This document shows, piece by piece, positions 22,325 to 42,046 of a stretch of DNA of 64,000 nucleotides; position 1 is the stretch's first letter; every line of letters starts with the position of its first letter. The translations under genes were made by a program, and so were the position numbers. Under the pieces are notes generated by a model. The model saw nothing but the letters and a program-made list of their open reading frames with translations. It had not been told where the DNA came from and ran no database searches. Source of the DNA: an uncultured bacterium (GTDB lineage: Bacteria; Actinomycetota; Actinomycetes; S36-B12; CAIYMF01); NCBI GenBank assembly GCA_903826575.1, contig CAIKEU010000058.1, forward strand, positions 52,900 through 116,899. Direction: 5' to 3'.

Positions 22325-22987
22325 CTACAGCGTGCTCGTTGGTCCACCGTCTGCGGGACCGTTGTCCGGTGTGTAGACCGGAACCTCGCTCGGTGGTGAC
22401 GCGTCGGAGACTGACGGTGCTGCCGGTGTTGGCGCGGCAGGGGCGGCGTGCCGTCCGCCACCTGTCGTGGGTGCGCTAGATCCCGCTGCGCGTGATCGCA
22501 ACCATGCTGCCACACCAACACCCGCGGCAAGCAGAGCGAGTGCGCCTAGCCCGATCATTGCCCACGGGGTACTGCCGCTATCGCTACCCGGTGGCGGCGG
22601 GGGAGTGCCAGGCGATGCGGTCGCATAGGTGAAAAGCATTAAACCTTCCACTGAGTGACCGTCCTGAGAGTTCATGAGATAGCCCAAGCGGTAGAGGGCG
22701 CCCTTTTGGCCACCGGGCCAGGACGCGGTGACGGTGTTCCCTGAAACAACTGGGGTTCCGAGTTGCACCTCCGTCCCGTCATCGCTTGTTGCGCGGAGGG
22801 TTTGTACTGTCACCGGCTGATCGAAGGTCAGCACAACCTGAGTTGGGCCCTGCGGCAGTGATTGACCGTTGCTCGGTGAAGACGAGATCAAGCGGGCATG
22901 TGCTGATGCAGGTGCAATGCCGGCGCAGAGCAGAAGACCGACTGTAGCGGAGATGGTCAGTGCGAAAATGCGAATGAGTCGTGACAC
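22325..22987 (-). CDS. CopC-like secreted/anchored copper protein
   Basis: SAHARLISSSPSNGQSLPQGPTQVVLTFDQPV after signal peptide; NSQDGHSVEGLMLFTY; C-terminal TM. Confidence 0.88.
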   Translation of the reverse strand: MSRLIRIFALTISATVGLLLCAGIAPASAHARLISSSPSNGQSLPQGPTQVVLTFDQPVTVQTLRATSDDGTEVQLGTPVVSGNTVTASWPGGQKGALYRLGYLMNSQDGHSVEGLMLFTYATASPGTPPPPPGSDSGSTPWAMIGLGALALLAAGVGVAAWLRSRAAGSSAPTTGGGRHAAPAAPTPAAPSVSDASPPSEVPVYTPDNGPADGGPTSTL

Positions 22988-23873: not shown

Positions 23874-24209
23874 TTTGGTGTAACCAATGTACGTATCGTC
23901 CGAACCCCCGTCTAAGTGACTGGGCCAAACGGGTGATGCCCCGACATACCCTCGTTGGGGGGGTATTTGGGACTCCGTTCACTCGAATGGAGTAGGCCCC
24001 GGAGTCGTGGCCTGCGAAAAACTGTGGCAGATCATTTTTGGTCACCTAACGTGCATCCTCCGAACCCCTCAAATGAGGGGACTCCCGTCAACTGCGTGGC
24101 CTCCTTTTAGGGATGTTGGACAACCCACGCTCACTGGTTATCTCGACATGTTCATTCGGAGCCCGCATGCCCGCGGGTTCGGTTCTGACACTGAAAAACG
24201 CTATTTCAG
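23874..24209 (+). promoter_or_regulatory. Structured leader/promoter region with several hairpins and an imperfect direct repeat
   Basis: Hairpins at 23946-23966, 23972-23993, 24065-24080, 24162-24177, 24191-24209; imperfect repeat 23874-23908 / 24037-24068 ending TCCGAACCCC. Confidence 0.4.
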
Positions 24210-24231
24210 ACTCGAGTTATTAGGAGCGCGC

Positions 24232-25881
24232 GTGGGTCTCACACCCGAAGGCGACGGTACGGCTAGCGTCGTTACCGACAGGCGTTCGCGCGTCATTCCG
24301 ATGCCCAGAAACACCATGCAGGACAACGACAATGAGCGTTCTAGTGCAGCTTCGCTAGTCGATCTGATCGTTACCACTACCGGTGTTGAGCGACGGATTG
24401 CTGACGCTGCTTTCATCGAGCACGAGATGACCGGCGAGGCCTTCCTCGACGTACTAAGTCGATGGAGCGCAATCTCTCCCGGCCAGGTGCTTGCTGCACT
24501 TGCCCTTCACCACAAGTTGAATGTGGTTGACCTCCGAACGGGGCCACCACTACGCCCCGCAGGAACCGAATTGAGCGCCGACGACTGTCGGCGCCTTTCG
24601 TGCGTTCCGCTCAATGTTGATGGCGACGTCCTGCATGTTGCCACCGCGCTGCCCACCGCGGAGCTGTCTGCTGAGCTTCGTGCTCTGACCGGCTACCAAA
24701 TCAAACTTCACGTTGCCTCCGAAGCCGAAGTGGCTGCGTCCATTCGCTCTCGGGACATCACCGAAATTGCGTTCAACGGTTCAGCGATTGATCCAACGGG
24801 CGCGATCGTTCGTGTTGGTCGGTTCCTCAGTGCGTCTACCGCTCGATTCGAGTTGAGCAACGCGGCTACGACGTCGCTGCGGATGCGCGTCGACGGTGTG
24901 TGGCGGGTCGTGTGCATGCTGAATGCTGATTTCACCGCCGCTCTCAAGCGCACTTTCCACTCGCAGAATGCCGCACATCCGGATGGGGACTTCGCCGTCT
25001 CGACGGTGACGACGGCGTCAGGCGAGTCCGTGTCAGCTTCGGTCTCGTCACGTGGTTGGGCGCAAACAGTCGTCATCGAAATTCCACAGGTGGGGATCCG
25101 TTCACTTGACGAACTTGGATTCTCCGCATCGATCGTTAACGAGATCCGCGATCACATCGACCGCTACAACGGTTTGATTTTGGTCGCTGGTCCGATCGAT
25201 TCCGGTGTGCCGACGACTGTCCGCGCAATTGTTGATGAGATCGATTCTGACGAACGTCTCGTATCGGTGATCTCTTCAGACCACAGCACCCAGGCCGCTG
25301 GTCTCTTGCGGATCCACGCTGGAGCAGAACACGACGTGCACGCCGGTCTATCGCATGTGCGAATGGCACAGGCCGATGTCGTTGCCCTCACAGATGTCGT
25401 CTCAACTTCGGTTGCGACGTCAGTACGACAGCTGAGTAATGAAGGTCGTTTGGTGATCGCGGGCATGCGTATCGCCGCTGACGACGCCATCTCAGCAGCA
25501 CTAACCCGTTTCAACCTCACCCGCGATGATCTCGCGAGTGAGGCCGTTCTGATTGTTGGCCAGCGCCTCGTACGACGTGTATGTGGTGCCTGCTCAACGA
25601 CGTTCCACCCGTCAGACGCTGAGCGTATGGCGTGGACGGAGCTCGGTGGATCACCATCCACCACGTTTATCCACGGGGTCGGTTGCAATGTCTGTGCCGA
25701 CACCGGATTCGACGGTCGTATCCCGATCGTCGAACTCGCGTCCCCTTCCGGACACCCCGGACACGGAACACGTACCGCACCCCTGGTGAGTTCGGCTGTG
25801 GCTCTCGTTGAGCAACGGCAGACCACATTGTCCGAACTGCTCCGCAGTTTCACCCTACGCACGTCAACGATCGCGTCATGA
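24232..25881 (+). CDS. GspE/PilB-like (T2SSE) protein, apparently catalytically degenerate
   Basis: T2SSE N-domain-like ISPGQVLAALALHHKLNVVDL...CVPLNVDGDVLHVATA; GLILVAGPIDSGVPTTVRAIVDEI in Walker A position; VGQRLVRRVCGAC...CNVCADTGFDGRIPIVEL zinc region. GTG start after taggagcg RBS. Confidence 0.75.
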   Translation: MGLTPEGDGTASVVTDRRSRVIPMPRNTMQDNDNERSSAASLVDLIVTTTGVERRIADAAFIEHEMTGEAFLDVLSRWSAISPGQVLAALALHHKLNVVDLRTGPPLRPAGTELSADDCRRLSCVPLNVDGDVLHVATALPTAELSAELRALTGYQIKLHVASEAEVAASIRSRDITEIAFNGSAIDPTGAIVRVGRFLSASTARFELSNAATTSLRMRVDGVWRVVCMLNADFTAALKRTFHSQNAAHPDGDFAVSTVTTASGESVSASVSSRGWAQTVVIEIPQVGIRSLDELGFSASIVNEIRDHIDRYNGLILVAGPIDSGVPTTVRAIVDEIDSDERLVSVISSDHSTQAAGLLRIHAGAEHDVHAGLSHVRMAQADVVALTDVVSTSVATSVRQLSNEGRLVIAGMRIAADDAISAALTRFNLTRDDLASEAVLIVGQRLVRRVCGACSTTFHPSDAERMAWTELGGSPSTTFIHGVGCNVCADTGFDGRIPIVELASPSGHPGHGTRTAPLVSSAVALVEQRQTTLSELLRSFTLRTSTIAS

Positions 25882-25907
25882 ACCGTCCTACTACATGGGA
25901 GAGCCCT

Positions 25908-28900
25908 ATGTCCTCCAAGTCCATGAAGGCCGCAGTCGGCGTTCGCGGGCGATTCGCGAGCTCCGGCCGCCGAATCACCGCAAGCATCGCCGCTGCGGCA
26001 CTTGCCGTCGGCACGATGGCCGCTGCGGGAGCAATCGCTGCCCCAGCCGCTAACGCTGCTACGACAACAACCAACAACCTGACGGCTGGTACCGGCACAA
26101 CTGCCGATGCCGGTGCGGTGAACGTGGTGTTCAACATCAGTCAGAACACCGGCCCAGGCTTCATTCATGCCAATGATGCGGCCACGCACTACAGCTACTT
26201 GATCCAGAAGGTCAATATCGGTAACCCGTACCAGACCACGTACACGTACCCAACGGATCAGGCTGATCCGAACTACGTGGCGCAGTACGCGGGCCAGACC
26301 TTCCAGGCCTGTAAGCCAAACTCAAACGACACAGACACCGTGAAGTACGACCCAATGTTCCCGAATCACTGTGAATGGGGCGGTACGCGCGATTCAAACA
26401 CCGCGGACCCGATCGTTACTCAAGGTGAGCAGGGTGTCGACAAGAACGGTGTCTCGCATAACGACATCAACACCGTCACAAATCTTCCCGATGGCAACTA
26501 CATCATCTCGGTTAAGGCTGATCTAGCCAATGTCGGCGGAACGGTCGTGGACTCAAACGCAGAAATCGGTGGCGCTCGCTTCACCGTGCCGATGGCCAAG
26601 CCGATCAACGTTCGCGTCAACGAGGGTCCGCTGCCGACAGGCACGCTGCGCATCCGCGTCTTCGAAGACGCAGCCCCAGTTGACGGTACCTACGAGATCG
26701 ACGCCGAGGCTGGCCTTCAGGGCTTCCGCGCCTACCTCACCGACCAGCTTGGTGATGTCAGCAACGACGTCTTCGGCAACCCGCTGTGTACGGTCTACGA
26801 GCACACCAGCTCAGATCCGAAATCACCGGACTACGATCCGGCGCACCCGAACGGTGCGGTGAAGATGGACGCCACTGGTGCTCCCGTCATCGCGGCTCCC
26901 GTAGTGAACACCGCTGTCGCTCAGGCTGCCGTTGGCACCTCTGGCGCGGCGTCTTCATTCCGCATCGCACTTCCAGCCGGTACCACCGCACCATTCGTTG
27001 GCGCTGAGGTAACCGGTACCGGTATCGGCACCAATGCCTACGTCAACGCGGTTAACAACATTGCAGCGCGTGGCACCACTCCTGCCTACACTCGCGTAAC
27101 TGTGTCCGAGCGAAATGCCACCGCAATCGCCGCTGGCACCGTCATCACTTTCTCTTCGGTAAACGGTAAGTGCATCTCCGACGAGAACGGTGACATTGTC
27201 ATTCCGAACCTGTTCCCAAGCCGCTACGGCACCACCGTTCGTCAGCCAGATGGCAAGAAGGACTGGCTGCAGACCACCACCCTTGAGGGTGGACCTGACC
27301 ACGACTGGTGGGTTATGGCCGGTGACACCGGTTACGGTGCCGAGACCACCTACGGTGCAGAGCTTGTGCCGGAAATGCAGTTCGGTTTCATCCCGCAGAA
27401 GACGACCGCTGACGCGGTCGACAACGCATGTCTCGGCGTTGCCGGTGACCCAACCTGCCTTCCGAGTCGTGGTCAGACCTTGCCGTCAGCTGCTGGTACG
27501 GCCTCGATCTCGGGCAACCTGCACTCAGGTTGTAAGTACATCGGCTCAGGCGGCGCGGCTCAGTCCAGCGTTGTCCTAGCTGACATGCCGTCCAGCACGG
27601 AAATGAAGGACTGCGGTCCGTTCACCGTTGAGCATGGCCTCGTGGCAGTCAGCGCGATGGACATTGGCGATGCTGAGGTTGCGACCGCCAAGGTCAACCC
27701 GGATGGCTCGTACATCGTTCCGAACCTCAAGTCAGGTAACTACATGGTTACCTACTGGGATGACGCCATGGATCACATTCTTGATACCGCGAATGTAACC
27801 ATCCCAACGGATTCCAACGGTGCAGCTCAGAGCTTGAACCTCGGAACTGCGTACATTCAGTTCTGGTTCGCCTCGGTGCACGGTTACGTGTTCCAGGACC
27901 TCAACGGAAACGGCAAGAAGGATCCGGGCGAGCCTGGTGTTCCGAAGAATAAAATCACGCTTCGTGAGCGCGACAACACCCCGGTCGACCAGATGACCAA
28001 TGGTGTCGAGACCGACGCCAAGGGCTACTACAACGTCCTTCAGACGTACCCGATGGCACGTAACCTTGTGCTTGAGAACATTGATCCCCGCTACAAGCCA
28101 ACGGCAATGACGATTACTCCTTGTAACGTCAAGCATGGTCACACGTACTTCGGTTCCGCCGTGGACGTTTCGATCCTCCCGATTCTCGGCCAGTGTGGCG
28201 AGATCGATTGGGCTGTAAAGCCGATCCCAACCGGCCACACCGGTGGTATCGCTGGAACGATCACGTACGGTGCAACCCGTAACGAACTCGATGCCTCACA
28301 GGCAGCAACCGAGAACTGGCAGTCAGGTATCCCGAACATTCCGGTCAACCTGAACGCGGCCGTCGTCTGTGACGCGGTTGGCACCGGTGTCACGGTTACG
28401 TACGCGGGTGTTGGCTACACGGGTAACTGTGCAGCTGTTGGCGACGACATGATGGCAGCCGATGGCTCAGCCGTTCATGGTCCTCAATTGGCTGACACCT
28501 ACACCTCGGAGACGTACCACAGCCCGACGGGTTGTGTGCCTCGCGACAAGAACGGTGACATCCTCACCGGTAACACTGCGATGCCAGCGCCGATCCACTG
28601 GGCCAATGGTGTTGTCACCGGCGATCCAGCGATCCGCTGTGTTGAGTCGAATCTTCAGGGCTGGAATGCCGCACCTGGTGATGCAAGCATGATCGTGTAC
28701 CAGAACACCGATGCGAATGCACCCAACTACACGACGGATGCTACTCAGGTTGGTCTTCCGGTTCCTGATCAGTATGGCAACGCGCAGTACAACAATGATG
28801 GCCAGACCGTGAACGGCAACTACGGTTTCAGTTCATCCAAGCTGAACCTGTTCGACGGTGCAGCGCTGAACGCAGATGGTTCACAGAAGTACCCTGCATG

Positions 28901-31900
28901 TTCAGCAGCAGTCTCGGCTCAAATCGCCTCGACGGGTACGTACCCGGACCCGGCAGATCCGAACTCCATCAACGGTGGCCAGGACTGTATCCCGCTTGAT
29001 GACTCGGGTAACCCGCTCGAACTGTATGCACCCCTCGATGGTTCGACCATTGGTCAGAGCTACAAGTACCCCGAGCAAGAGCTTGAGGCAGAGCACTACA
29101 TCGTCTCCGTTGACATCCCCAACGATGCTTACGGTAAGCCGCTGTACCAGATCACCAAGGAAGAAGACGTCAACATCTTCTCTGGTGAGCCGTTCTTGCC
29201 ACAGGAGAACTTCCCGGTAACGGATCCCAATGCCGTTCCGGACATGCCTGCCGCAACACCAGGCCATCCAATCACGACTGGTCTTGGCGAGCACAACTCA
29301 TGCGTTGGCCCGATGCACACCGTGCATGTCACCAATCCAGACTTCATCAACGGTGGTGGAAGCCCATTCGAAGGTCAGCAGATGCCACTGTGCACGAGTC
29401 AAATCGTGAACGTTGGAGATGCGTCCACTGGTGGAACGAACTTCGAAATGTTCACCCCCGTCCCGCTGGCAACTCACATGTGGGGTCTGCTGTTGAACGA
29501 CCTTGGTATCACCTCTGATCCAAGCTCGATCAACTACGCCGAGGCCGAAGGTCTCCAGCACAACCCAACCGGATTCCGTGACTGGACCGGTCAGGTTTTG
29601 GACACCGCAATCTCCGATCCCAATGGGTTCTATGAGAGCGTCCTTCCGTCGTCAGACCGTGCAAACGTTCCGTCGCCGACCGGATACTCACCGAATATGT
29701 ACCTGTTGACTGGTAATGATCCGGGCTCACCAGGTCATCTCAACCCTCAATATGACTCTCGCTACGGCACCATCTCTACGCCGTTCCAGTCGTGGCCAGG
29801 TTTGTGGACGGTTACTGATACCGCTCCCGTTGCTGCAGGTGCGAGCACCTTCGACGGTTCCCTGGTGAACGTGAAGTGCATGCAGCCTGCGGGTGAGCCG
29901 GAGATCTTCGCGGTCGACAACCCGGTTTCACAGGGTGGCTCTGTACTGACCATCACCGGAAAGAACTTCGGTGACGGAACCAAGTACAGCAACGTGCTGA
30001 TCGGTGCTGCGAACGACCCGAACGCGGACCCATCAAAGGGCACCTCGCTCACGGTCAACTCGTGGACTGACACGCAGATCACGGTGCAGATCCCTGCGGC
30101 ATCGACGGGCTTCGCAGCCGGTCCTCGCTCACTGGTTGTGCAGAACGCTGCTGGTCAGTACTCGACCGCCGGTATGACCATCCACGTGATCGGTGCTGGT
30201 TACCAGCCGAAGATCTTCACCGTGGGTGCTGGCAAGCAGTTCAACACCGATACGTGGCCGACTCCGTACCCGTTGCAGGATGCCATCGAGGCAGCTGCGA
30301 AAGAGGGTCCGAAGGCGAACACGCTCGTTATTGCCTACCCACGCACCCCAGATGCCGTCTGGCCGAAGGGTGAATACCCCGAGAGCGTCGTGCTGCACAG
30401 CGGTGTGAAGCTGCAGGGTATTGGTACCGGCGGCTTCGAGGCTGACGGCACGTACGTCCCAGGCTCGATCATCAACGGCACATCCTTCTCTGAAGGTGAT
30501 CCCAACGGTGTGGCCTGGATGGATCTCGTTGCTGGCCTTGTTGGTGACCCAACTGGTGCCAACGGCAATCCGACTCCGGGTACTGTGATCGGTTCTGACA
30601 TTCCGGTTCCGGATGCTGCTGACGTCACAGTGTTGACACCAATTGGTGGCACCACCGGTACGATCAACAACGGCCAAGTCACGATGACCGGTGCTGCCGG
30701 CCAGACGACGTTGACCCGTAGTGGCTTTGGCAACACCAACAACGTAAACGTCGGCATGGTCGCCAGCGGCACCGGTATCGCACCGGGAGCTGTTGTCACT
30801 GCCAAGACGAACACCACGGTGACGTTGTCCATCGCCAACACGGCGGCGGTCACCGGCACGATCACCTTCACCTCGAACGCGAAGCCAGCAGTTGACGGCT
30901 TCATGCTCACCGGTGGTCACGAGGCGACCGTCCCGACCAACGTCAACCTGTTGACGCAGGGACAGCAGACGCCATACGGCGCCGCTGGCCAGGCGATCAC
31001 CCAGGGTGGTGGCGTTTACATCCACGATGGTTCGAACGGCATGGCCGTGACGAACAACCGCATCGACGGTAACTCCGGTGCTTACGCCGGTGCCGTCCGC
31101 GTGGGTACGACGTACGCGAACGGAAACATCGGTGCCAATGACACTGGTGCGAACCCGCTCACGAACTACCCACAGATCAACCAGAACGTGTCAATTGCTC
31201 ACAACTACGTCTACAACAACGGTGGTAAGAACGTTGCCGGTGGTATCGGTATCTTCTCCGGAACCCCTGGCTACCGGATTGCCTACAACGACATCTGTGG
31301 CAACTACAGTGCCGAATACGGTGGCGCGATCTCGCACTACGGCTTCAGCCGCAAGGGCAGCATCGATCACAACCGCATCTGGTACAACGAGTCATACGAC
31401 CACGGTGGTGCCATCCTGCTCGGTGGTGAACTGACCCCAAGCCCGCTTGAACTTACTGGCGGAACCGGCGAAGTTTCGATCTCGGCAAATAAGATCGACT
31501 CAAACAACTCCAATGATGATGGTGGCGGTATCTCCACCCTCAACGCTGGCACCTGGTCGATCAAGGTTGAGAACAACGAGATCACCAACAACCTCAGTAC
31601 CCATGAGGGTGGCGGTATCGCGCTGAACAACACCACTGGTCTGGTCTTGGACAACAACACCATCGCCGGCAACGTCACCTCGGCGACGGCTGCTACCAGT
31701 AACGGAATGCCTGCAGCTGCTGGTCTTGCTACCTCAGCCCTCGATCAGGTCTTCCAGGCCAGCCTGCCCGCCGGCTCGCCAACCTTCACCCGCCCCGTTG
31801 CGTTCAACAACGTCTTCTGGGACAACCGGGCCGGTTGGTTCGACGGTGCAAGCGTCCATGGCATCGGTCTTGCCGGTGACCCAGCCCCGATCAACAACTG

Positions 31901-33917
31901 GGATGTTGGCTCACAGGACAACTCCGGTAACGTGCCCGTCAGCAACTCCATCCTCCAGTCATGTGTGGGCACCACGCTCAACCAGGACTGCAGTGGAAGC
32001 CTCGGCACCAACGTGAACAGCAACCCGCAGTTCACCAAGCCGTACACCACGTCGGTTGTTGTTGACACTCGTCGCTCGTTCTTCGCCTTCCGTCAGACGT
32101 TGATCTCGTACGAAACCGCTACCCCATGGGACAACGCGGACTACTCGATCTCGCAGACGTCACCGGCGCGCGACATCGGTGCGGTTACCTACACCGATGG
32201 TGGAACGACCTACACCGCTCCTACCGCGGACGTGAACGGAACGCCGGTTTACGGTGGCACCGACGCAGGTTCGTACCAGTGGGCACCGCCACCCACGGTT
32301 CCCGACGCACCTACCGGTGTTGTCGTGACTCGTGGAGATCGCCAGCTCACGGTCTCGTGGACTGCTCCGGCCAATAGCGGTGGTCTGCCACTGCGCTCGT
32401 ACAAGGCCACTGCATACAACGCCCTCACCGGTGGAACAGCAGTCGCTACCTGCACGATCGGTGGAGCAACCACCTGTGTAATCACCGGACTGACCAACGG
32501 CACCACGTACTTCGTGGATGTCCAGGCCAGTAACCTGCTCGGCTACGGTGCAGCCTCTGCGCCACGCGTTGCAGGTACCCCGGCGACCGTCCCAGGCGCA
32601 CCTACTGGAGTTGTTACGACGCCTCGCTCGTACAGCCTCGGCGTTGCGTGGACCGCACCGGCAAGTGACGGTGGATCAGCCATCACCGGTTACACCGCGA
32701 CTGCTTACACAAGCCAGTTGACCGTGTGTGCCGGTGGAGCTACCAACTACCCCACATGTACGCTCCTCGGATTCATTCCTGTTGGAACGGTGCCGAACCC
32801 AGCACTCAACACCCCGCTGGGAACGCCATGTACCACCACGACACTGACCTGTAACATCACCGGCCTCACCGCCGGCACGACGTACCTGGTCGATGTCAAG
32901 GCAACCAACGCAGTCGGAACCGGCTTGGCGTCCACGCCACGCGTATCGGGCACACCATTCGGTGTTGTTCCGACGGCACCGCAGACGGTTTCGGTCACAG
33001 CAGCTCCTGCCGCTGCGGTCGTCGCCTGGACTGCACCAGCTAGCAACGGCGGAACTCCTGTGACCGGCTACACCGCAACCGCCTACACCGCGGCCACTGG
33101 TGGAACCGTTGCCGGATCCTGCACGACGACGACCCTTACGTGTCGCATCAGCCCGCTAACGGCTGGGACGACGTACTACGTCGAGGTCTACGCCACCAAC
33201 GCAGCTGGTAACTCGCCGGCAGCACCGTCACCACGGGCAACCGTTGTTCCGTTGGTCCTGTCGGCGCCAAATGCCCCGACTGGTGTCACCGGAGTGCGTG
33301 GAAATGGCAACGTCGCCATCTCCTGGACTGCAGCAGTGGCCAATGGTGACCCTGTCACCGGATACACCGCAACGGTCTACAACGCCCTCACCGGTGGAGC
33401 CGCAATTGGAACCTGTACCACGACGACAGCACTTACCTGCACCGTCGCTGGTCTGACCAACGGCACTAACTACTGGGTCGCTGTTAACGCCACCAACACG
33501 ATCGGTACATCTGCGGACTCGGCACCTCGAGTTGCGGCAGCGTGGACCAGCTCGCTGGTGACCAACGTGGCTGTGAACGCAGTCAACGGAACCTTGACCA
33601 ACCCGGTCAACCGTCGCCTGTACTTCACCTGGAACGCATTCGCTCCAGCAGCGATCACCGACACGATGATCGTCGTTACGAATGCGGGCACGGGTGCCAC
33701 GGTGGCTACGTACCACACAGGCACGTTCTTGGGTAACTTGCTGACGGCAACCTCAGCAGCTACGGCTTACGCCAGTCTCGCTGCGCCGGTGCCAGCAGCA
33801 GGAACGCGTCTATACAACGCCGGAACCACGTACAACGTGACGGTTTCTGTATCGACAACGGCACGCTTCGGCACGCCGACCTACGGACCGGCAACCACGG
33901 TCGCGTTCACCGCATAA
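25908..33917 (+). CDS. Giant (~2.67 kaa) secreted modular protein: SdrD-B-like, IPT/TIG-like, parallel beta-helix and four Fn3-like domains
   Basis: Signal peptide RRITASIAAAALAVGTMAAAGAIAAPAANA; YVFQDLNGNGKKDPGEPGVP; PEIFAVDNPVSQGGSVLTITGKNFGDG; repeated NNxIxxNxxxxxGGGI turns; four Fn3-like units. Confidence 0.85.
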   Translation: MSSKSMKAAVGVRGRFASSGRRITASIAAAALAVGTMAAAGAIAAPAANAATTTTNNLTAGTGTTADAGAVNVVFNISQNTGPGFIHANDAATHYSYLIQKVNIGNPYQTTYTYPTDQADPNYVAQYAGQTFQACKPNSNDTDTVKYDPMFPNHCEWGGTRDSNTADPIVTQGEQGVDKNGVSHNDINTVTNLPDGNYIISVKADLANVGGTVVDSNAEIGGARFTVPMAKPINVRVNEGPLPTGTLRIRVFEDAAPVDGTYEIDAEAGLQGFRAYLTDQLGDVSNDVFGNPLCTVYEHTSSDPKSPDYDPAHPNGAVKMDATGAPVIAAPVVNTAVAQAAVGTSGAASSFRIALPAGTTAPFVGAEVTGTGIGTNAYVNAVNNIAARGTTPAYTRVTVSERNATAIAAGTVITFSSVNGKCISDENGDIVIPNLFPSRYGTTVRQPDGKKDWLQTTTLEGGPDHDWWVMAGDTGYGAETTYGAELVPEMQFGFIPQKTTADAVDNACLGVAGDPTCLPSRGQTLPSAAGTASISGNLHSGCKYIGSGGAAQSSVVLADMPSSTEMKDCGPFTVEHGLVAVSAMDIGDAEVATAKVNPDGSYIVPNLKSGNYMVTYWDDAMDHILDTANVTIPTDSNGAAQSLNLGTAYIQFWFASVHGYVFQDLNGNGKKDPGEPGVPKNKITLRERDNTPVDQMTNGVETDAKGYYNVLQTYPMARNLVLENIDPRYKPTAMTITPCNVKHGHTYFGSAVDVSILPILGQCGEIDWAVKPIPTGHTGGIAGTITYGATRNELDASQAATENWQSGIPNIPVNLNAAVVCDAVGTGVTVTYAGVGYTGNCAAVGDDMMAADGSAVHGPQLADTYTSETYHSPTGCVPRDKNGDILTGNTAMPAPIHWANGVVTGDPAIRCVESNLQGWNAAPGDASMIVYQNTDANAPNYTTDATQVGLPVPDQYGNAQYNNDGQTVNGNYGFSSSKLNLFDGAALNADGSQKYPACSAAVSAQIASTGTYPDPADPNSINGGQDCIPLDDSGNPLELYAPLDGSTIGQSYKYPEQELEAEHYIVSVDIPNDAYGKPLYQITKEEDVNIFSGEPFLPQENFPVTDPNAVPDMPAATPGHPITTGLGEHNSCVGPMHTVHVTNPDFINGGGSPFEGQQMPLCTSQIVNVGDASTGGTNFEMFTPVPLATHMWGLLLNDLGITSDPSSINYAEAEGLQHNPTGFRDWTGQVLDTAISDPNGFYESVLPSSDRANVPSPTGYSPNMYLLTGNDPGSPGHLNPQYDSRYGTISTPFQSWPGLWTVTDTAPVAAGASTFDGSLVNVKCMQPAGEPEIFAVDNPVSQGGSVLTITGKNFGDGTKYSNVLIGAANDPNADPSKGTSLTVNSWTDTQITVQIPAASTGFAAGPRSLVVQNAAGQYSTAGMTIHVIGAGYQPKIFTVGAGKQFNTDTWPTPYPLQDAIEAAAKEGPKANTLVIAYPRTPDAVWPKGEYPESVVLHSGVKLQGIGTGGFEADGTYVPGSIINGTSFSEGDPNGVAWMDLVAGLVGDPTGANGNPTPGTVIGSDIPVPDAADVTVLTPIGGTTGTINNGQVTMTGAAGQTTLTRSGFGNTNNVNVGMVASGTGIAPGAVVTAKTNTTVTLSIANTAAVTGTITFTSNAKPAVDGFMLTGGHEATVPTNVNLLTQGQQTPYGAAGQAITQGGGVYIHDGSNGMAVTNNRIDGNSGAYAGAVRVGTTYANGNIGANDTGANPLTNYPQINQNVSIAHNYVYNNGGKNVAGGIGIFSGTPGYRIAYNDICGNYSAEYGGAISHYGFSRKGSIDHNRIWYNESYDHGGAILLGGELTPSPLELTGGTGEVSISANKIDSNNSNDDGGGISTLNAGTWSIKVENNEITNNLSTHEGGGIALNNTTGLVLDNNTIAGNVTSATAATSNGMPAAAGLATSALDQVFQASLPAGSPTFTRPVAFNNVFWDNRAGWFDGASVHGIGLAGDPAPINNWDVGSQDNSGNVPVSNSILQSCVGTTLNQDCSGSLGTNVNSNPQFTKPYTTSVVVDTRRSFFAFRQTLISYETATPWDNADYSISQTSPARDIGAVTYTDGGTTYTAPTADVNGTPVYGGTDAGSYQWAPPPTVPDAPTGVVVTRGDRQLTVSWTAPANSGGLPLRSYKATAYNALTGGTAVATCTIGGATTCVITGLTNGTTYFVDVQASNLLGYGAASAPRVAGTPATVPGAPTGVVTTPRSYSLGVAWTAPASDGGSAITGYTATAYTSQLTVCAGGATNYPTCTLLGFIPVGTVPNPALNTPLGTPCTTTTLTCNITGLTAGTTYLVDVKATNAVGTGLASTPRVSGTPFGVVPTAPQTVSVTAAPAAAVVAWTAPASNGGTPVTGYTATAYTAATGGTVAGSCTTTTLTCRISPLTAGTTYYVEVYATNAAGNSPAAPSPRATVVPLVLSAPNAPTGVTGVRGNGNVAISWTAAVANGDPVTGYTATVYNALTGGAAIGTCTTTTALTCTVAGLTNGTNYWVAVNATNTIGTSADSAPRVAAAWTSSLVTNVAVNAVNGTLTNPVNRRLYFTWNAFAPAAITDTMIVVTNAGTGATVATYHTGTFLGNLLTATSAATAYASLAAPVPAAGTRLYNAGTTYNVTVSVSTTARFGTPTYGPATTVAFTA
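32298..33546 (+). repeat. Four tandem Fn3-like units encoded at the 3' end of the giant gene
   Basis: Units start approx. 32298, 32587, 32962, 33253; recurring SWTAPASxGGxPVTGYTATAYxAxTGG...C-x(5-8)-C...LTxGTTYxVxVxATN. Confidence 0.85.
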
Positions 33918-34060: not shown

Positions 34061-35368
34061 GTGACCGACGACATCACAAGCGGGATCAATCCGCTGCTGT
34101 CGCGACGCAATTTCCTGCGGGCGGGCGTGTTGGGTGCAGCTGGAGCAGGCGTAGCAGTTTACGCCGGCCACCAAGCACCCACCGCAGTTGCCGCCCCAGG
34201 CTTTACACCAACCAAGACCGTCAATGTGCATCTCGCCGCCACCGATGGTTGGGTCTCCATGCCCGACTCGGCGCCGGCGATGCCGCCCTACTGGCCAGAC
34301 AACGATGCTCCCGCGCCGTACAACATGTACGTGTTTGGGTTCCGCAACGTCACTGGCTTGAGCGACGCTCAGGTCATTACCCAAAAGGGTCGGGCGCAGA
34401 TTTCTGCTCCTGTACTCGCATTCGACGAGGGTTCGGAAGTCAAGGTTTCGCTCACCAACCTTGGTATGGCCCAGCGCCCAGACCTCGTTGATGGCCACAC
34501 CATGCACTGGCACGGCTTCAACAATGCGCTCCCCATCTTCGATGGCGTGCCCGAGATGTCGGCCTCCGTGCCGATCGGTAAGACGATGGTCTACTACTAC
34601 CGTCCGACCGATCCGGGTACGTACATGTACCACTGTCACTTCGAAGACGTTGAACACGTTCAGATGGGTATGACCGGCCTGGTCTACGTCCGTCCGAAGT
34701 TGAACAATGGAACGAACAAGTACGTGTTCAACGATCCTGCAACCCGCTACGACCGTGAGTTCCCCGTCTTCTTGACGGAGAGCCAGCCAGAGGGTCACTA
34801 CCGCGACGCTCATATTCAGATCACCGACTGGGCTGCTTACAACTCAGGCTTCGGTTTGATGAATGGTCGCGCTTGGCCGGACACGATCGTTAAGAACACG
34901 CAGACGTCAGACACCAACCTTGGGCCGAACTTCGATCCGTTGGCGACGTACCCTGCTGGCTCAGATGGTGAGCGCCTGCAGTTCCAGCCGCAGACCTCAC
35001 TTATCGAGGCAAATGCCGGTGAGACTGTTCTACTCCGCATGGCAAACCTTGGCTCGTTGCGTCACACGTTGACGATGGACGGCGTTCCGATGAAGGTCAT
35101 CGGCGCTGACGCTGACCAACTCAAGGGTGCCGATGGCAACGACAACTCGTACGTCAGCAACTCGATCGATATCGGTCCTGGTGAATCACGCGATGTGCTC
35201 TTCACTGCGCCAGAACCCGGCACGTACAAGCTTTACGACCGGGACTTCTCCAACCTGTCCAATCAGGGGGGCGGCGGTTACGGCGGCATGATGACCAACA
35301 TTGTGGTCTCAGCTCCCAATACCCTGCCTGCTCAGCCGGTCCAGCCATTCACTCCGGGCGTGAGGTAA
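34061..35368 (+). CDS. Multicopper oxidase-like protein (Tat-type signal), two cupredoxin domains; called MCO1 here
   Basis: SRRNFLRAGVLGAAGAGVAVYAG; HTMHWHGFNN (34496-34516); YMYHCHFEDVEHVQMGMTG (HCH at 34631-34639). Confidence 0.9.
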   Translation: MTDDITSGINPLLSRRNFLRAGVLGAAGAGVAVYAGHQAPTAVAAPGFTPTKTVNVHLAATDGWVSMPDSAPAMPPYWPDNDAPAPYNMYVFGFRNVTGLSDAQVITQKGRAQISAPVLAFDEGSEVKVSLTNLGMAQRPDLVDGHTMHWHGFNNALPIFDGVPEMSASVPIGKTMVYYYRPTDPGTYMYHCHFEDVEHVQMGMTGLVYVRPKLNNGTNKYVFNDPATRYDREFPVFLTESQPEGHYRDAHIQITDWAAYNSGFGLMNGRAWPDTIVKNTQTSDTNLGPNFDPLATYPAGSDGERLQFQPQTSLIEANAGETVLLRMANLGSLRHTLTMDGVPMKVIGADADQLKGADGNDNSYVSNSIDIGPGESRDVLFTAPEPGTYKLYDRDFSNLSNQGGGGYGGMMTNIVVSAPNTLPAQPVQPFTPGVR

Positions 35369-35373
35369 TCACA

Positions 35374-36663
35374 ATGAACCTTCGACGACTTCTCGCAGGC
35401 GGACTTAGCCTGACGGTGCTCACGGGTGCGCTGTTCGCAGCTGCAGCCGCTCCGAGCTCCGGTGCAACCGCGACCCCGGGTGAAGGCATCCTGTGTGAGC
35501 CCGGAAACGGCGTTTACACGATGTCTGCCACCACCGGATTCGAGACGATGCCTGACGGCAACTCGGTCTTCACGTGGGGTTACCACACGCCAACGCATGC
35601 CTTCCAGAACACCGCTCCGGTGATCTGCGCAACTGCCGGCGATACCATCCGCATCACCCTGACGAACAACCTGGCCGAGGACACCTCATTTGTGTTCCCG
35701 GGTATGAGCAATGTTCAGGCTGACGGCGTTGACGCAGTACCGCAGTCAGATGCAACGGGCCGCGTAACCTCGCTGGCTCCAGTTGCTCCGGCCAAGGGTG
35801 GTCAGACCACGTACACGTTCACGGCTGATAAGCCAGGAACGTACATGTACGAGAGTGGTACGGACTCACGTAAGCAGGTCGAGATGGGCCTGTGGGGTGC
35901 AATCGTTGTCTACCCGGCATGTCACGCGACTGGTTGTAACCAGGCGTACGACGATCCGCGTACGACTTTCGAGGCAACCCGCGAATACATCCACATGTTC
36001 TCCTCCGTTGACCCAGACATTCACTCGGCCATCCAGCTTGGACAGCCGGTCGACTGGAGCACCTACTCGGCCAAGTACTACTTGATCAACGGCCGATCAG
36101 CTCCCGACAGCCTGTCGCCGAACAATGCAGCGTGGCTTCCCTTCGCGCCGTACGGCTCGATGGTCCGCGTTCGTCCGCAGGATCCCAATGGTGGAGACAC
36201 CTTGCCGGCCCTCGTCCGCTACGTGAACGCCATGGACAAGGACGTTGCCTTCCACCCGCACGGTAATACCGAGCGCGTGATCGGTGAAGATGGCCAGCCG
36301 CTGGACACCATCGGTAAGCCTGACAACAGCTACGGATCGTTCCTTGTGGACATCGGCTCCAACCGCACGGCGGAGTCGATGTTCACCTGGACCGACCAGT
36401 GGCACTACGACCCGACGACCAACCCGATTCCGGTTCCGTTGAGTCCTTACAACGACCTGATCATCAAGGGAACGTGGTACGCCATGAGCCCCTACCTCGG
36501 TAGCCAAGGTGCACTTCCGCCTGGTGTTACTCAGTTCAACCAGTGTGGTGAGTACTACCACATGGCTCACAACCACGCGCTGTACGCGGCAACCAACTAC
36601 GGTGCCACGTTCGGTGGTCAGATGACCCTTATCCGCATCGATCCGCTGGGCGGGTGTGCCTGA
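35374..36663 (+). CDS. Multicopper oxidase-like protein with copper motifs only in the C-terminal domain; called MCO2
   Basis: Sec-like signal RRLLAGGLSLTVLTGALFAAAAA; FHPHGN (36250-36267); CGEYYHMAHNHALYAATNYGATFGG (from 36544); GTYMYESGTDSRKQVEMGLWG where ligands are missing. Confidence 0.82.
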   Translation: MNLRRLLAGGLSLTVLTGALFAAAAAPSSGATATPGEGILCEPGNGVYTMSATTGFETMPDGNSVFTWGYHTPTHAFQNTAPVICATAGDTIRITLTNNLAEDTSFVFPGMSNVQADGVDAVPQSDATGRVTSLAPVAPAKGGQTTYTFTADKPGTYMYESGTDSRKQVEMGLWGAIVVYPACHATGCNQAYDDPRTTFEATREYIHMFSSVDPDIHSAIQLGQPVDWSTYSAKYYLINGRSAPDSLSPNNAAWLPFAPYGSMVRVRPQDPNGGDTLPALVRYVNAMDKDVAFHPHGNTERVIGEDGQPLDTIGKPDNSYGSFLVDIGSNRTAESMFTWTDQWHYDPTTNPIPVPLSPYNDLIIKGTWYAMSPYLGSQGALPPGVTQFNQCGEYYHMAHNHALYAATNYGATFGGQMTLIRIDPLGGCA

Positions 36664-36664
36664 T

Positions 36665-39600
36665 ATGAGGAACAACATGAAAACCTCTAGTGCACGTACT
36701 GCGCGTGCAAGTATCGCCATCGGCGCATCACTTGCTGTAGCAGCTTCGGGCCTCACCGCACTTGCTGCTCCGGCAGCAAACGCCTCGGGTGCTCACATCA
36801 AGGCAGCCGCTGCCGGGGTGCATACGTCTGGACTTCGTTCAGCCGCAGCACCTGCCGGTTCCGTCGGTCAAGGCCCGCTCACGTCGAGCTGCACCGTTGT
36901 CGGTGGCCGCACGTCGTGTGACATCTGGGCCAAGATCGGTGCCGTAACGGTTCACGACACGGCGTCCACCACCAAGAGCATCCCGGTGTGGAACTTCGTG
37001 CCAACGACCAGCGCGACCGCGACCGGTGCTTCGGCACTGCTCATTGGTCAGGTCGGTGTACCGATGGACATCACCCTGCACAACTCCCTGCCAACAAACG
37101 TCGGTCTGGGTATCCCGCAGGCTGACGGCTTCTACGGTGACACCACGGGTATCGCCCAGGGTGCGTCGAAGACATACACCATCACGCCTCAGCGCGCTGG
37201 TACGTATGTCTACCAAGCGGCATTGACTCCAAATGGCGATCGTCAGGTTGCCATGGGTCTTGCGGGCGCACTGGTTGTTCGTCCGGCAGATGCCTCGACG
37301 ACCGCATACGACACGTTGCAGGCCGGCTACGACGACGAGGCAATGTTGGTGTACTCCGACGTTGACGAGAACCTCGCAGCCGACCCGCTTGGGTTTAACA
37401 TGCGCGATTACATGCCGCAATACCACCTGATCAACGGAGTCTCGTACCCTGATGGCTCACCGATCCTGACCGATGCTGGCCGCACCGTCATGTTGCACAT
37501 GGCCAACATCTCGCAGTTGGACAAGAGCCCGACCATTCTCGGGAACCGCATGTCGGTCTTCGCCAAGGGCGCGCGTCCGATCCCCACAGTCATGAACGTG
37601 ACCGGTCGTGTGCTCGTCGCCGGTGACACGATGGACGCATCTGTGCTCATGCCTGCGGGCCAGCACCGTTACGCCATCTACTCAACGTGGGCAACGCTGA
37701 ATAATGGAACCAACTGGATTGATGGGGTGAACTCACCTGCTCTCGGCGGTGGAATCGCTTTCATTCAGTCCGGCGGTACCGGCACCGTAGCTCCGACTGG
37801 CCCTGCTATCTCCAAGATGGCCGCAGCCGGTCAGCCTGGTGGAGTTGGTCGTCCGCTCACCCTGACGATGACACTGGACACCGCTAACCGCGGTGGTGGC
37901 GACATTCAGCAGGCTGAGTACTGGATCGACACCCTTCCGGGTGCGCCTGGTTCGGGAACGCAGGTTGCAGTAGCTGGAACGTCAGCTCTGGCCGCCTCGT
38001 TGCCAATCGACGTCAGCGCGCTGTCCACGGGTATCCACAACATCTACGTCCGCGCTCAGGACACCTTCGGCGCATGGGGACCCACGGGTACCCTTGGCGT
38101 GCGAGTTGACGCAACTGGTCCGGTTGTCTCTAACCCAATGCTAGATGGCGGCAACATCTCGACCAACGGTGTGACGCCTCTGGCGATTGCAGCCACAGTG
38201 AGCGATGCGGACAACGGTGGCAGCAACGTCATCGCAACCCGCTACTGGATTGACGGATCGGCGACACCGCCCGTCGCGCCAGTAATGCTCACCACCAACG
38301 GCCCGCGCGTCACTGCGTCGGCAAGCGGTTCGATCCCGACCAGCGCACTAACTGGTCTGGCTGAAGGTGCTCACACCATCTACGCCCAAGGTGAGGATTC
38401 ACTTGGTCAGTGGGGTGCGGTCCTGCCGATCCCATTCATTGTTGACCGCACCGCACCGACTACGACTAACGTCGTCGTCTCACCGGGTGTCACCAACGGT
38501 GTGACCACTAACCCGGCCATCCCTGGTTCGTTCGGCATTACTGCCGATGTAGTTGATCCGACGGTGGCTGGGGTGAACAGCTCTCTGACGAACGTCGAGG
38601 CTTTCATCTGTGCACCGGATATCTACTACTCAACGACGCCTAATGGCACTGCTTGTGCACCAGGTCCTCAGGGCACCACAAACGCCCTTGACCTGCTCGC
38701 AGGTGGTCCGGGTGCTGCGCCCGGCTCAACCCACTACGTGGGCAACATGCCACTGGCATGGGTCGGCGGCTACATCGCCAAGGGTGGAGACATCCCGATC
38801 TGGGTCATCGGTGTGGATGCCGCGGGTAACCGCGTCGTCACCACTGGCCTAGCGCGTAACTCGCACCTGTTGATCGACACGATCAAGCCAACCGCCTCAG
38901 GCACCCTTACTCAGGGCACGTGGACGTTGGAGCAGAACTACACGACTGATGCATCTGCCACCCTCGCGGTGACGGCTGCTGACGCAGCTCCATCGGGTGG
39001 CGTGGCCAGCGCTGAGTACTTCATCGGTGCTGATCCTGGCTACGGCAACGGAACCCCGATCACGCTCGTGGCCGGTGCAGGAACAGCAACGCTGAACCTC
39101 AACACCATCGGCGCAGCGGATGCCACCTGGCTCAAGGGCGGCAGCCACACGGTTAACGTCCGGGCACTTGACGTCGCAGGTAACTGGGGCCCAACAACCG
39201 CCGTTACCGCAACGCTGAAGCCGGTTACCGTCTTCGCAAGTGGCTGGGAAACCCCAACAACCGGATTCTTCGGTTGGACGGCCACTTCGGGCACCGGTGT
39301 TACCAGCTCGACAACGGCTCCGATCGCTGGAACTCGTAGCTTGCAGGTTGTCACCACGACGACCAGCACCGGCTACCAGAGCCGTACGGTTCCGACAGCG
39401 GGTACGCCAGCCATCGGAACGCAGTTCTCGGCTCACGTCACCTTCCAGCCAGGTACGACCGCTACAGCGGGTCTCACGGTTGCGGCCTTGACCTCGCCGA
39501 ACGGAGCTAACTTCGCTCAGGTTCAGTACCGTCGAGTCGGAACGCAGTCCGCAGTACGTATCGGTGTGGCGGCTGGAAACCTTTCAGCCAACCCAACGAT

Positions 39601-39847
39601 CAACTGGGGTACATGGACGAACGTCACCACGGCTACCAACTACGCACTGGTTGTGAACTACACCCAGGGTGCAGCTGGAACAGCCACCGTAACTGTCAAC
39701 GGCGGTGTCGCTATCAACACTGGCGTCGCCACCCGCAACACCAACGCCTACGCCGTCGCCTCCGTCAAGGTCGGTGCGGTCACTAGCCCAGGTGCTGTGA
39801 TGACAATCAAGTTCGATTCCTTCTCATCCGCTCGCGCACCCTTCTAA
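36665..39847 (+). CDS. Cupredoxin/MCO-like domains lacking visible Cu ligands + Ig-like repeats + C-terminal LamG-like domain; called MCO3
   Basis: GTYVYQAALTPNGDRQVAMGLAGALVV aligns with MCO1/MCO2; Ig-like repeats AEYWIDTLPGAPGSGTQVAV..., TRYWIDGSATPPVAP..., AEYFIGADPGYGNGTPITL; C-term jelly-roll-like WETPTTGFFGWTATSGTGVTSST. Confidence 0.75.
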   Translation: MRNNMKTSSARTARASIAIGASLAVAASGLTALAAPAANASGAHIKAAAAGVHTSGLRSAAAPAGSVGQGPLTSSCTVVGGRTSCDIWAKIGAVTVHDTASTTKSIPVWNFVPTTSATATGASALLIGQVGVPMDITLHNSLPTNVGLGIPQADGFYGDTTGIAQGASKTYTITPQRAGTYVYQAALTPNGDRQVAMGLAGALVVRPADASTTAYDTLQAGYDDEAMLVYSDVDENLAADPLGFNMRDYMPQYHLINGVSYPDGSPILTDAGRTVMLHMANISQLDKSPTILGNRMSVFAKGARPIPTVMNVTGRVLVAGDTMDASVLMPAGQHRYAIYSTWATLNNGTNWIDGVNSPALGGGIAFIQSGGTGTVAPTGPAISKMAAAGQPGGVGRPLTLTMTLDTANRGGGDIQQAEYWIDTLPGAPGSGTQVAVAGTSALAASLPIDVSALSTGIHNIYVRAQDTFGAWGPTGTLGVRVDATGPVVSNPMLDGGNISTNGVTPLAIAATVSDADNGGSNVIATRYWIDGSATPPVAPVMLTTNGPRVTASASGSIPTSALTGLAEGAHTIYAQGEDSLGQWGAVLPIPFIVDRTAPTTTNVVVSPGVTNGVTTNPAIPGSFGITADVVDPTVAGVNSSLTNVEAFICAPDIYYSTTPNGTACAPGPQGTTNALDLLAGGPGAAPGSTHYVGNMPLAWVGGYIAKGGDIPIWVIGVDAAGNRVVTTGLARNSHLLIDTIKPTASGTLTQGTWTLEQNYTTDASATLAVTAADAAPSGGVASAEYFIGADPGYGNGTPITLVAGAGTATLNLNTIGAADATWLKGGSHTVNVRALDVAGNWGPTTAVTATLKPVTVFASGWETPTTGFFGWTATSGTGVTSSTTAPIAGTRSLQVVTTTTSTGYQSRTVPTAGTPAIGTQFSAHVTFQPGTTATAGLTVAALTSPNGANFAQVQYRRVGTQSAVRIGVAAGNLSANPTINWGTWTNVTTATNYALVVNYTQGAAGTATVTVNGGVAINTGVATRNTNAYAVASVKVGAVTSPGAVMTIKFDSFSSARAPF

Positions 39848-39866: not shown

Positions 39867-40334
39867 ATGACAAGCTCATTCACCATCTCGCCGCGAGCGG
39901 CGGTCGTGGGGGCGACGGTGGCATTAGCCACCGGCGCACTCCTCGCCGGCTCGGTTGCGATGAACAACGCATCAGAAGCGGCAACCAGCAAGACCAAGGT
40001 TCCGCAGAGCCGTCAGATCGAGGCAAAGTCGGGCATCCGAATCGTCAGCGCCCACGCGGTTGCTGACGGAGGCATCATCGATGTTCGCTATCAGGTCCTT
40101 GATCCGCTGAAGGCAGACATCATCGAAGGTGATCCCACCAAGACACCCCATCTGCAAGACGTGCGTAACGGGGGTGTTTTGACCGATACTGCTGCTATGA
40201 GGCATGGTCACGCACAGCGTCCCGCAGGTACGTACTTCCTGCTCTACTACAACAAGAGTGGTGTGGTGAAGTCTGGCGACTTCATCAACGTCACGATTGA
40301 TGGATTGACGCTGAACAACGTACCCGTTACGTGA
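39867..40334 (+). CDS. Small secreted hypothetical protein
   Basis: Signal/TM AAVVGATVALATGALLAGSVAMNNASEA; SGIRIVSAHAVADGGIIDVRYQVLDPLKA...AMRHGHAQRPAGTYFLLYYNKSGVVKSGD. Confidence 0.75.
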   Translation: MTSSFTISPRAAVVGATVALATGALLAGSVAMNNASEAATSKTKVPQSRQIEAKSGIRIVSAHAVADGGIIDVRYQVLDPLKADIIEGDPTKTPHLQDVRNGGVLTDTAAMRHGHAQRPAGTYFLLYYNKSGVVKSGDFINVTIDGLTLNNVPVT

Positions 40335-42046
40335 CGTCACTAGCCCGCTTGGTCGCGGCCGTTCTGAGTGGAATGCTACTTACGTTGGCATTCGTACTCG
40401 GGGCGGCCGCGCCCGCGTCTGCGCACTCGCAAGTAATTTCCAGTTCACCAGCCGATGGTCAACGGGTGGAAACGTCGCCCAAGCAACTCACGTTCGTCTT
40501 TTCTGAACCCTCGGATGTTAGTTCCGTCGTGGTGTCGCTGACGGGCCCGTCTGGGCCTCTAAACGTTCTCGGCACACCCGTTGAGCAGGGGGTCAACGAT
40601 CTTGGCCATCAAACAATCGTTGTTCCGGTAACCGCCGAACTACCAGCGGGCCTGTACCGCGAGACGGTGAGCGCCACCTCGCGTATCGATGGTCATACCG
40701 CGGGCAGTGAATTGATCTTTGGTGTTCGCACCGACGTCGCGGCGCCCGCCGGTGACTCGGGCAATACGACATCACCTGTGGACCGAGTTCGATCGATTCT
40801 GCAGGGCATCATGTTGATCGCCGCGGGAATCGCATTTGGTCTGATTGCGCTAGCCGGGCCTGCTCGCGGGCGAGGACTACCTGCAGCTCGGATTGCCGCG
40901 GGGATTGCTGGGCTGGCCGCTATCGGATCAGGTGCAATCTGGCACATTGGCAATGGATTGATCGTCGCTGCCTGTGGCCTGATCGGATCGGTCGTCCTGT
41001 TTGCGGCAGCGTTCACGCCCACGTTGACGGACCGAATTCGGCTGTGGCTCGCTGCCCTCGGACTCGCCGTCGCCGTTGTTCCGCTATCTCTGGTAGGGCA
41101 CGCGGCTGCTCAAGGAACTCTGATGGCCGTCTTTGACGGCCTGCACATCATCACCACGGCGACGTGGGCCGGAGTTGTGATCGCAGCGGCCTTCCTACTT
41201 CCCAAGGCCAGTCGAGGTGATCGGTTGCCGATCCTGCGTCGCACCTCGGTTTTGGCCAGCGTGACGTTCTTAATCTCGCTCATCACCGGTCTGCTGATGG
41301 CCAATGGTTTGGTACCGTCCGTCGGCGGATTGTTCGGATCGCTATATGGCATGGGATTGGTCGCCAAATCCGTCCTGGTGATTCCTGTGTTGTTACTTGC
41401 GATCTGGGCGCGCTGGCGCATGAACAATGGGAAGTCGAGTTCGCTAGTCGTCGAAGCGGGCTTGCTCTTTGTGATTCTGAGTCTCGGTGTCCTGGTTGCG
41501 TCGCAACCACCACCTGCCTCGCAGAAATTCCTGCCAACACCAAGCTGGCAGGCGGATTCTGCGGCCGCATCTCTGGACGCTGACGATTTGCTGGTAAGTG
41601 TTCAGATCGCACCGAACACTCCCGGAACCCGGTTCTTGGTTGTGCGCGTGGATAACACCCGTCGCCCTGCGCCGGGTCCGATTCAGGCCGTGAAGGCGCG
41701 ATTTGGTTCCTCCGGTCTGTTGGACCTTAAGCAGGGCACCGATGGATTGTGGACGACAAATGTCGACGTCACTGAGCCCGGTCCGACTGCGATTCACGTT
41801 GAGGTGACCCGCCCATTACTTCCTCTGGCCGTTGCGAATAACACGTGGACAGTTGGGCCTACTCCAGGCACGTACGAAGGCGGCAGTTCGCTGACCGGCT
41901 ACGTCGGTGCTGCCATCGGCGGACTCATTGGTCTGACGCTGATCGGGATTCTTGTAGAGGGTGTTTCCCGAGGTCGTCGCAGGGACGACGATGAGCCCGG
42001 TGCAACGAAACCAGACTCGGGTGCACATTCCGCGGTATCGGTCTAA
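40331..42046 (+). CDS. CopC-CopD fusion protein (copper binding/transport-like)
   Basis: SAHSQVISSSPADGQRVETSPKQLTFVFSEP (CopC) followed by multi-TM CopD-like region; overlaps previous gene by 4 bp. Confidence 0.88.
   Translation: MTSLARLVAAVLSGMLLTLAFVLGAAAPASAHSQVISSSPADGQRVETSPKQLTFVFSEPSDVSSVVVSLTGPSGPLNVLGTPVEQGVNDLGHQTIVVPVTAELPAGLYRETVSATSRIDGHTAGSELIFGVRTDVAAPAGDSGNTTSPVDRVRSILQGIMLIAAGIAFGLIALAGPARGRGLPAARIAAGIAGLAAIGSGAIWHIGNGLIVAACGLIGSVVLFAAAFTPTLTDRIRLWLAALGLAVAVVPLSLVGHAAAQGTLMAVFDGLHIITTATWAGVVIAAAFLLPKASRGDRLPILRRTSVLASVTFLISLITGLLMANGLVPSVGGLFGSLYGMGLVAKSVLVIPVLLLAIWARWRMNNGKSSSLVVEAGLLFVILSLGVLVASQPPPASQKFLPTPSWQADSAAASLDADDLLVSVQIAPNTPGTRFLVVRVDNTRRPAPGPIQAVKARFGSSGLLDLKQGTDGLWTTNVDVTEPGPTAIHVEVTRPLLPLAVANNTWTVGPTPGTYEGGSSLTGYVGAAIGGLIGLTLIGILVEGVSRGRRRDDDEPGATKPDSGAHSAVSV

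Follow-up and report, generated by a model that had tools for sequence, protein, structure and literature searches.

Two adjacent multicopper oxidase-like genes, MCO1 and MCO2, in the window (the whole 64,000-nt stretch of DNA analysed, from an uncultured actinobacterium) encode complementary halves of the ligands of one trinuclear copper site: the full set of the superfamily, four HxH motifs plus the type-1 His/Cys/His/Met, is obtained only from MCO1 and MCO2 together. Sequence and model evidence make it very likely that the two proteins share one such site. Equally favoured is a fuller reading, in which they belong to a three-subunit extracellular oxidase derived from a homotrimeric ancestor of the type-C two-domain class, with one site between the first domain of MCO1 (MCO1-D1) and the second domain of MCO2 (MCO2-D2). 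The enzyme is probably an obligate hetero-oligomer, specifically a heterotrimer, that originated by duplication and complementary ligand loss, not from a split gene; that MCO3, the third gene of the set, supplies the remaining subunit is a reasonable expectation, held with somewhat less confidence.

Division of copper ligands between MCO1 and MCO2

MCO1 (34061-35368, forward strand; 435 aa, Tat signal), MCO2 (35374-36663, forward strand; 429 aa, Sec-type N-terminus) and MCO3 (36656-39847, forward strand; a third, MCO2-related paralogue with an Ig-like tail) each encode two cupredoxin domains per chain. The N-domain of MCO1 carries a complete type-1 Cu set and two HxH motifs, contained in HTMHWHG (H146, a type-1 ligand, with H149 and H151; 34496-34513, forward strand; spacing H146-x2-H149-W-H151-G) and in HCHFEDVEHVQMGM (H191-C192-H193, H199 and M204; 34631-34672, forward strand; spacing H191-C192-H193-x5-H199-x4-M204), and its C-domain is ligand-free. 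In MCO2 it is the C-domain that carries two HxH motifs, without Cys, at HPHG (H294 and H296; 36253-36261, forward strand) and HNH (H399 and H401; 36568-36576, forward strand); the N-domain has no ligands, and in its loop homologous to that of MCO1, ESGTDSRKQVEMGLWG, each ligand position is replaced. Both cupredoxin domains of MCO3 (about 36869-37819, forward strand) are ligand-free, and the type-1 set, restricted to the N-terminal domain of MCO1, is absent from MCO2 and MCO3. Trinuclear His number four in MCO1, four in MCO2 and none in MCO3, never eight in one chain. The original prediction had placed two HxH motifs and a type-1 site in the N-domain of MCO1 and two HxH motifs in the C-domain of MCO2, and had noted the loss of all ligands from the MCO2 N-domain loop; these assignments, the open reading frames and their coordinates were all correct. 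Its two-protein picture holds for the division between MCO1 and MCO2, but overlooked MCO3 as the third member of the set.

Scanning about 85,000 species genomes for matches to an MCO2 alignment yielded 317 confirmed relatives, and the best 80 of these 317 loci were studied. In the resulting alignment, 75-77 of 79 rows keep the H/H/H/H/C/H/H positions of MCO1 and 81-82 of 82 keep the four His of MCO2, a retention of about 95-100% across the roughly 80 sequences of MCO1 and of MCO2, drawn from about ten phyla. Among the 75 of these best 80 loci in which both proteins are fully covered, 74 retain every one of the eight trinuclear His together with the type-1 set, and neither an HCH nor an HxHG motif occurs in any of 79 MCO3 sequences. 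The exception, a Chloroflexi locus (L062), has lost ligands both in MCO1 (LxxQxR, HCR, Y) and in MCO2 (HTD); this joint loss, a single case, is as expected if the ligands of the two proteins serve one site. The locus is possibly a degenerate or repurposed copy.

A further His lies in the inter-domain linker of MCO1 (H246; 34796-34798, forward strand; kept in 76/79) and of MCO2 (H217; 36022-36024, forward strand; kept in 80/82), and could mark a subunit meeting point or a metal-binding site. The equivalent MCO3 position is His or Asn in 70/79, and His is also present in the stand-alone relative L150 described below.

Distribution, gene pairing and descent

In the genus of the window, MCO1 and MCO2 are found in five of 11 genomes (the window's own counted), always paired. 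More widely, the best 80 of the 317 loci represent about ten phyla or groups: Actinomycetota, Chloroflexota, Bacillota (Moorella, Thermincola), Myxococcota and Acidobacteriota, together with Pseudomonadota, Nitrospirota, Planctomycetota, Desulfobulbaceae and Hydrogenedentes. All ~75 of these with enough flank have three separate ORFs on a single strand, in the order MCO1-MCO2-MCO3, with no fused MCO1-MCO2 among them. A stop codon divides MCO1 from MCO2 in all of the best 80 loci and, in the window, the two ORFs are intact and in different frames, which together argue that their separation is no sequencing error.

Since these loci had been found through MCO2, MCO1 was also used as bait, in 797 genomes of three phyla (251 + 299 + 247). 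All 23 MCO1-class matches (239 bits or more), 19 of them in new genomes, have MCO2 immediately downstream; in 45 known genomes MCO1-class matches score >250 bits, versus at most 123 bits for cross-matches to MCO2 or MCO3. The co-occurrence of MCO1 and MCO2, proposed as a check in the original prediction, is thus seen from either gene. Three Chloroflexi genomes (G505, G508 and G785, the last with locus L174) contain two or three MCO1 copies, and both L174 copies are complete trios.

The same bait matched (157 bits) a stand-alone 368 aa protein, L150, in genome G783. Its D1 contains HTIHLHG and HCHEEAPEHIQMGM and its D2 HSH and HDH, making it a complete two-domain oxidase, and its scores against the three subunit profiles are nearly the same (215.7, 215.6 and 219.9 bits). 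In the alignment MCO1 alone shares its D1 ligands and MCO2 alone its D2 ligands, with the last HxH slightly shifted, while MCO2 and MCO3 have common D1 replacements (Pro, Ser or Ala with Gly, Gln, Leu). A phylogeny of 70 sequences gives one clade per subunit (support 100/100, 100/99 and 98/90), with similar branching inside the subunit clades, long MCO3 branches and L150 beside MCO1. L150 was considered as an unpaired MCO1 and rejected, given its complete site and its position outside the MCO1 clade. It is the sole stand-alone relative with a complete site, and in the genomes searched no MCO1 orthologue was found without its partner.

Pairwise distances are correlated between MCO1 and MCO2 (r 0.90), MCO1 and MCO3 (0.82) and MCO2 and MCO3 (0.89) across 64 loci, and 0 of 2000 permutations gave values as high. 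This shows joint inheritance, a correlation that by itself does not prove physical contact. The simplest history would begin with a type-C two-domain oxidase that formed a homotrimer, each pair of neighbours enclosing one of three identical trinuclear sites. Following duplication, the lineage leading to MCO2 and MCO3 would have lost its D1 ligands and MCO1 its D2 ligands; at a later stage MCO3 would have lost its D2 ligands too, leaving MCO1 with the N-domain half (type-1 Cu and two HxH), MCO2 with the C-domain half (two HxH) and MCO3 with neither.

Structure models and the proposed enzyme

In Nocardioides sp. CER19 (L036), MCO1 and MCO2 are in one frame with one TGA between them. An MCO1-MCO2 read-through of this locus was modelled as a single chain with AlphaFold (23 equally paired rows, stops as Gly); the read-through is a modelling device that carries no claim of natural read-through, and the protein is a relative, not that of the window. 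The tandem model has a mean pLDDT of 77.8 and a pTM of 0.80, with a disordered or flexible linker (374-418); a much lower pTM would be expected had the two subunits been independently placed. Foldseek comparison with the PDB aligned the tandem model with Thermus laccase (2xu9/6w2k) at TMt 0.70-0.71 over 816-819 columns, against TMt 0.48-0.49 for entries of the same laccase aligned over 593-594 columns. An alignment of 816-819 columns must reach MCO2-D2 and, as TMt is higher, MCO2-D2 adds roughly one domain at the place of laccase D3. The tandem model therefore matches a three-domain laccase, with MCO2-D2 apparently in the D3 place, a domain-level reading drawn indirectly from the scores. The interface of D1 and D3 is where the trinuclear site of laccases is located. 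Superposition on ceruloplasmin, which was sequential and covered about one subunit (TMq about 0.3), argues against an alternative packing of MCO1-D2 with MCO2-D1. A triple-tandem model, for L073 with only five rows, reached pLDDT 49.5 and pTM 0.36, too low to be used, and a mixed alignment of single, double and triple chains intended for such a model was mis-registered between paralogues and was dropped. The original prediction that a functional trinuclear site could form only between MCO1 and MCO2 fits both the constant co-occurrence and this modelled D1/D3-like arrangement which, at the domain level, gives no sign of motifs on distant surfaces.

As subunits of one extracellular multicopper oxidase, MCO1, MCO2 and MCO3 would assemble their six cupredoxin domains into a ring that holds a single trinuclear Cu site where MCO1-D1 meets MCO2-D2. 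This shared site would receive electrons from the type-1 Cu of MCO1 by way of the HCH bridge and use them to reduce O2. MCO3 would close the ring and probably tether the oxidase to a giant surface protein, and the likely substrate would be a metal on the cell surface, Fe(II) or some other. The data show the division of ligands, the obligate pairing of the genes, their common descent and the geometry of the model at the level of domains; the ring with MCO3, the loading of the site with Cu, oxidase activity and substrate are what we infer from them. In the window, the Tat signal of MCO1 and the Sec-type N-terminus of MCO2 appear to direct the two proteins to different export routes, so that they must meet outside the membrane. 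Inspected by eye, the MCO1 N-terminus is Tat-type in Actinobacteria and Chloroflexi and Sec-type in the Proteobacteria looked at, and MCO1 of Firmicutes (L065, L067, L072 and L073; Moorella, Thermincola and a relative) has no visible signal peptide. Spore-coat oxidases also lack one. Anaerobes are among these Firmicutes hosts, a poor match for an enzyme that reduces O2.

The candidate partner at the surface is encoded directly upstream of MCO1 by a gene for a 2679 aa secreted protein (25878-33917, forward strand; Pfam SdrD_B, TIG and fn3; beta-helix/NosD-like in relatives). A giant ORF occupies this position in 56 of the 63 loci with >3.5 kb of flank, with SdrD_B, TIG or beta-helix domains in the relatives scanned. 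It is fused to the N-terminus of MCO1 in two loci (L077, L101) and to the C-terminus of MCO3 in three (L081, C. metallidurans L112 and Paraburkholderia L113), fusions that suggest contact with the oxidase. A GspE/PilB-like ATPase gene (24007-25881) runs 4 bases into the giant gene, and L026 has a similar-looking ORF at that position. Behind MCO3, a gene for a small secreted protein (39867-40334, forward strand; 155 aa, no Pfam family) recurs, as one of about 150-190 aa, also with no Pfam family, in the distant loci read. A SURF1-like gene (21120-21920) and a CopC gene (22325-22987) also lie near the cassette, suggesting a wider copper or oxidase region.

It is possible, without being the expectation, that the shared site serves another substrate, either Cu(I), oxidized for copper tolerance, or phenols, as in laccases, which are found among the related two-domain enzymes. 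The genes beyond the small protein are relevant here: in the window this is a CopC-CopD fusion (40331-42046, forward strand; assigned by Pfam, probable copper delivery or import), and CopC/CopD follow the cassette in the Chloroflexi loci scanned too, but in the proteobacterial loci scanned CopC/CopD is not a neighbour and subtilase or unrelated genes stand there instead. Neither this, nor the giant adhesin-like protein in most loci, nor the increase of the Sideroxydans trio on magnetite (PMC12016527) is decisive against Cu(I) or phenols.

MCO3 might instead lie outside the ring, as a surface anchor or chaperone, with the shared site formed in an MCO1-MCO2 heterodimer or an MCO1/MCO2 hexamer. 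This arrangement would suit a subunit that is ligand-free, the fastest diverging of the three (long branches) and equipped with long adhesive tails, and a confident model was obtained from the MCO1-MCO2 pair alone. We consider it unlikely: MCO3 comes next in every locus with sufficient flank, its two-domain core is kept, its distances track those of both MCO1 and MCO2, and two-domain oxidases are trimers (PMC13151041).

Quite improbable is the absence of any trinuclear site, in which case MCO1 would carry electrons as a blue-copper protein and MCO2 would bind copper on its own, the two being co-transcribed by chance. Copper-handling genes (CopC/CopD) are among the neighbours of the cassette; however, H149/H151 and H191/H193 are fixed in MCO1, though needless for a mere blue-copper protein, and MCO2 retains exactly the four His missing from MCO1. 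The pairing of the two genes is also universal in the genomes searched, and the L062 ligands were lost together. A single-chain oxidase broken by frameshift, assembly error or recent gene split can be dismissed as exceedingly improbable, since the adjacent ORFs resemble halves in their complementary motifs but are separated identically in about 75 loci (of the best 80 of 317) from about ten phyla, each has a separate start and, as a rule, a signal peptide of its own, no fusion was found there and MCO1 and MCO2 are paralogous along their whole length. The description of the oxidase as 'split' in the original prediction was accordingly abandoned in favour of two-domain oxidase paralogues with complementary ligand loss.

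Comparison with known multicopper oxidases

The best PDB sequence matches of MCO1 are type-C two-domain oxidases (Nitrosomonas BCO, 3g5w; a metagenome laccase, 2zwn), and the trio resembles these and L150 in having two cupredoxin domains per subunit and an N-domain type-1 Cu. Two-domain oxidases, divided into classes A, B and C by the place of the type-1 Cu, have an inter-protomer trinuclear site (PMC13151041); in type C it is formed by D1 together with the D2 of the neighbouring protomer, and the trio is predicted by the model to be alike at the domain level. Of the 'in trans' site originally proposed, what is new is that it would join different subunits, the inter-protomer location itself being already known (PMC13151041). 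Type-C enzymes are homotrimers with three complete sites, whereas the trio consists of three gene products whose ligands allow one.

Three tandem multicopper oxidase genes were recorded in Sideroxydans lithotrophicus ES-1 in 2017, without functional clues (PMC5566968). A 2025 study describes Slit_1812-1818 as including three cupredoxin proteins, of which two have canonical motifs and the third, a large one, has none; its proteomics found the cluster at higher levels on magnetite than on Fe(II)-citrate, and it mentions Paraburkholderia and others as having similar clusters (PMC12016527). Three tandem cupredoxin genes plus small proteins are also the arrangement here, and the Sideroxydans cluster (trio Slit_1816-1818) is probably the same system, L112 and L113 being matched to it by architecture and description only. 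In the relevant passages of these two papers, the division of one copper site between two proteins is not stated for Sideroxydans (PMC5566968, PMC12016527); on that basis the gene trio had been noticed earlier, the shared site not. In open-licence literature no paper was found by the exact phrase for split or heteromeric multicopper oxidases, and an account of Mtr clusters (PMC8805035) does not mention multicopper oxidases. If the proposal is true, the uncharacterised Sideroxydans cupredoxin cluster linked to mineral iron oxidation gains a concrete hypothesis, and motif-based annotation miscounts each trio as two oxidases and a cupredoxin. The chances seem about even that the trios represent an ancient, widespread class of obligate heterotrimers, with one site from two genes, a ligand-free third subunit that closes the ring and anchors it on the giant surface protein, and a role in oxidizing solid metals outside the cell.

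Large extracellular or surface oxidases with a proposed role in Mn oxidation or action on Fe include the Mnx complex (MnxG with MnxE/F) and MofA/OmpB; in six-domain enzymes of the MnxG type the whole trinuclear site is in one chain, between domains 2 and 3 (PMC3600357). Like ceruloplasmin and other six-domain oxidases, the trio would have six cupredoxin domains with most interfaces stripped of ligands and one site left. Ceruloplasmin is a single chain, however, and the trio is three separate genes, fused in none of the best 80 of 317 loci; its gene order would also differ from the ring order needed by the site, unlike that of a ceruloplasmin-type chain. Models of multicopper oxidase evolution start with two-domain homotrimers and end with single-chain six-domain enzymes such as ceruloplasmin. 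The trio, if correctly interpreted, would provide, with its genes still separate, a living counterpart of the transition between homotrimer and ceruloplasmin-type ring, and a family of this kind, in which duties are divided yet the genes remain separate, would open that evolutionary step to bench tests.
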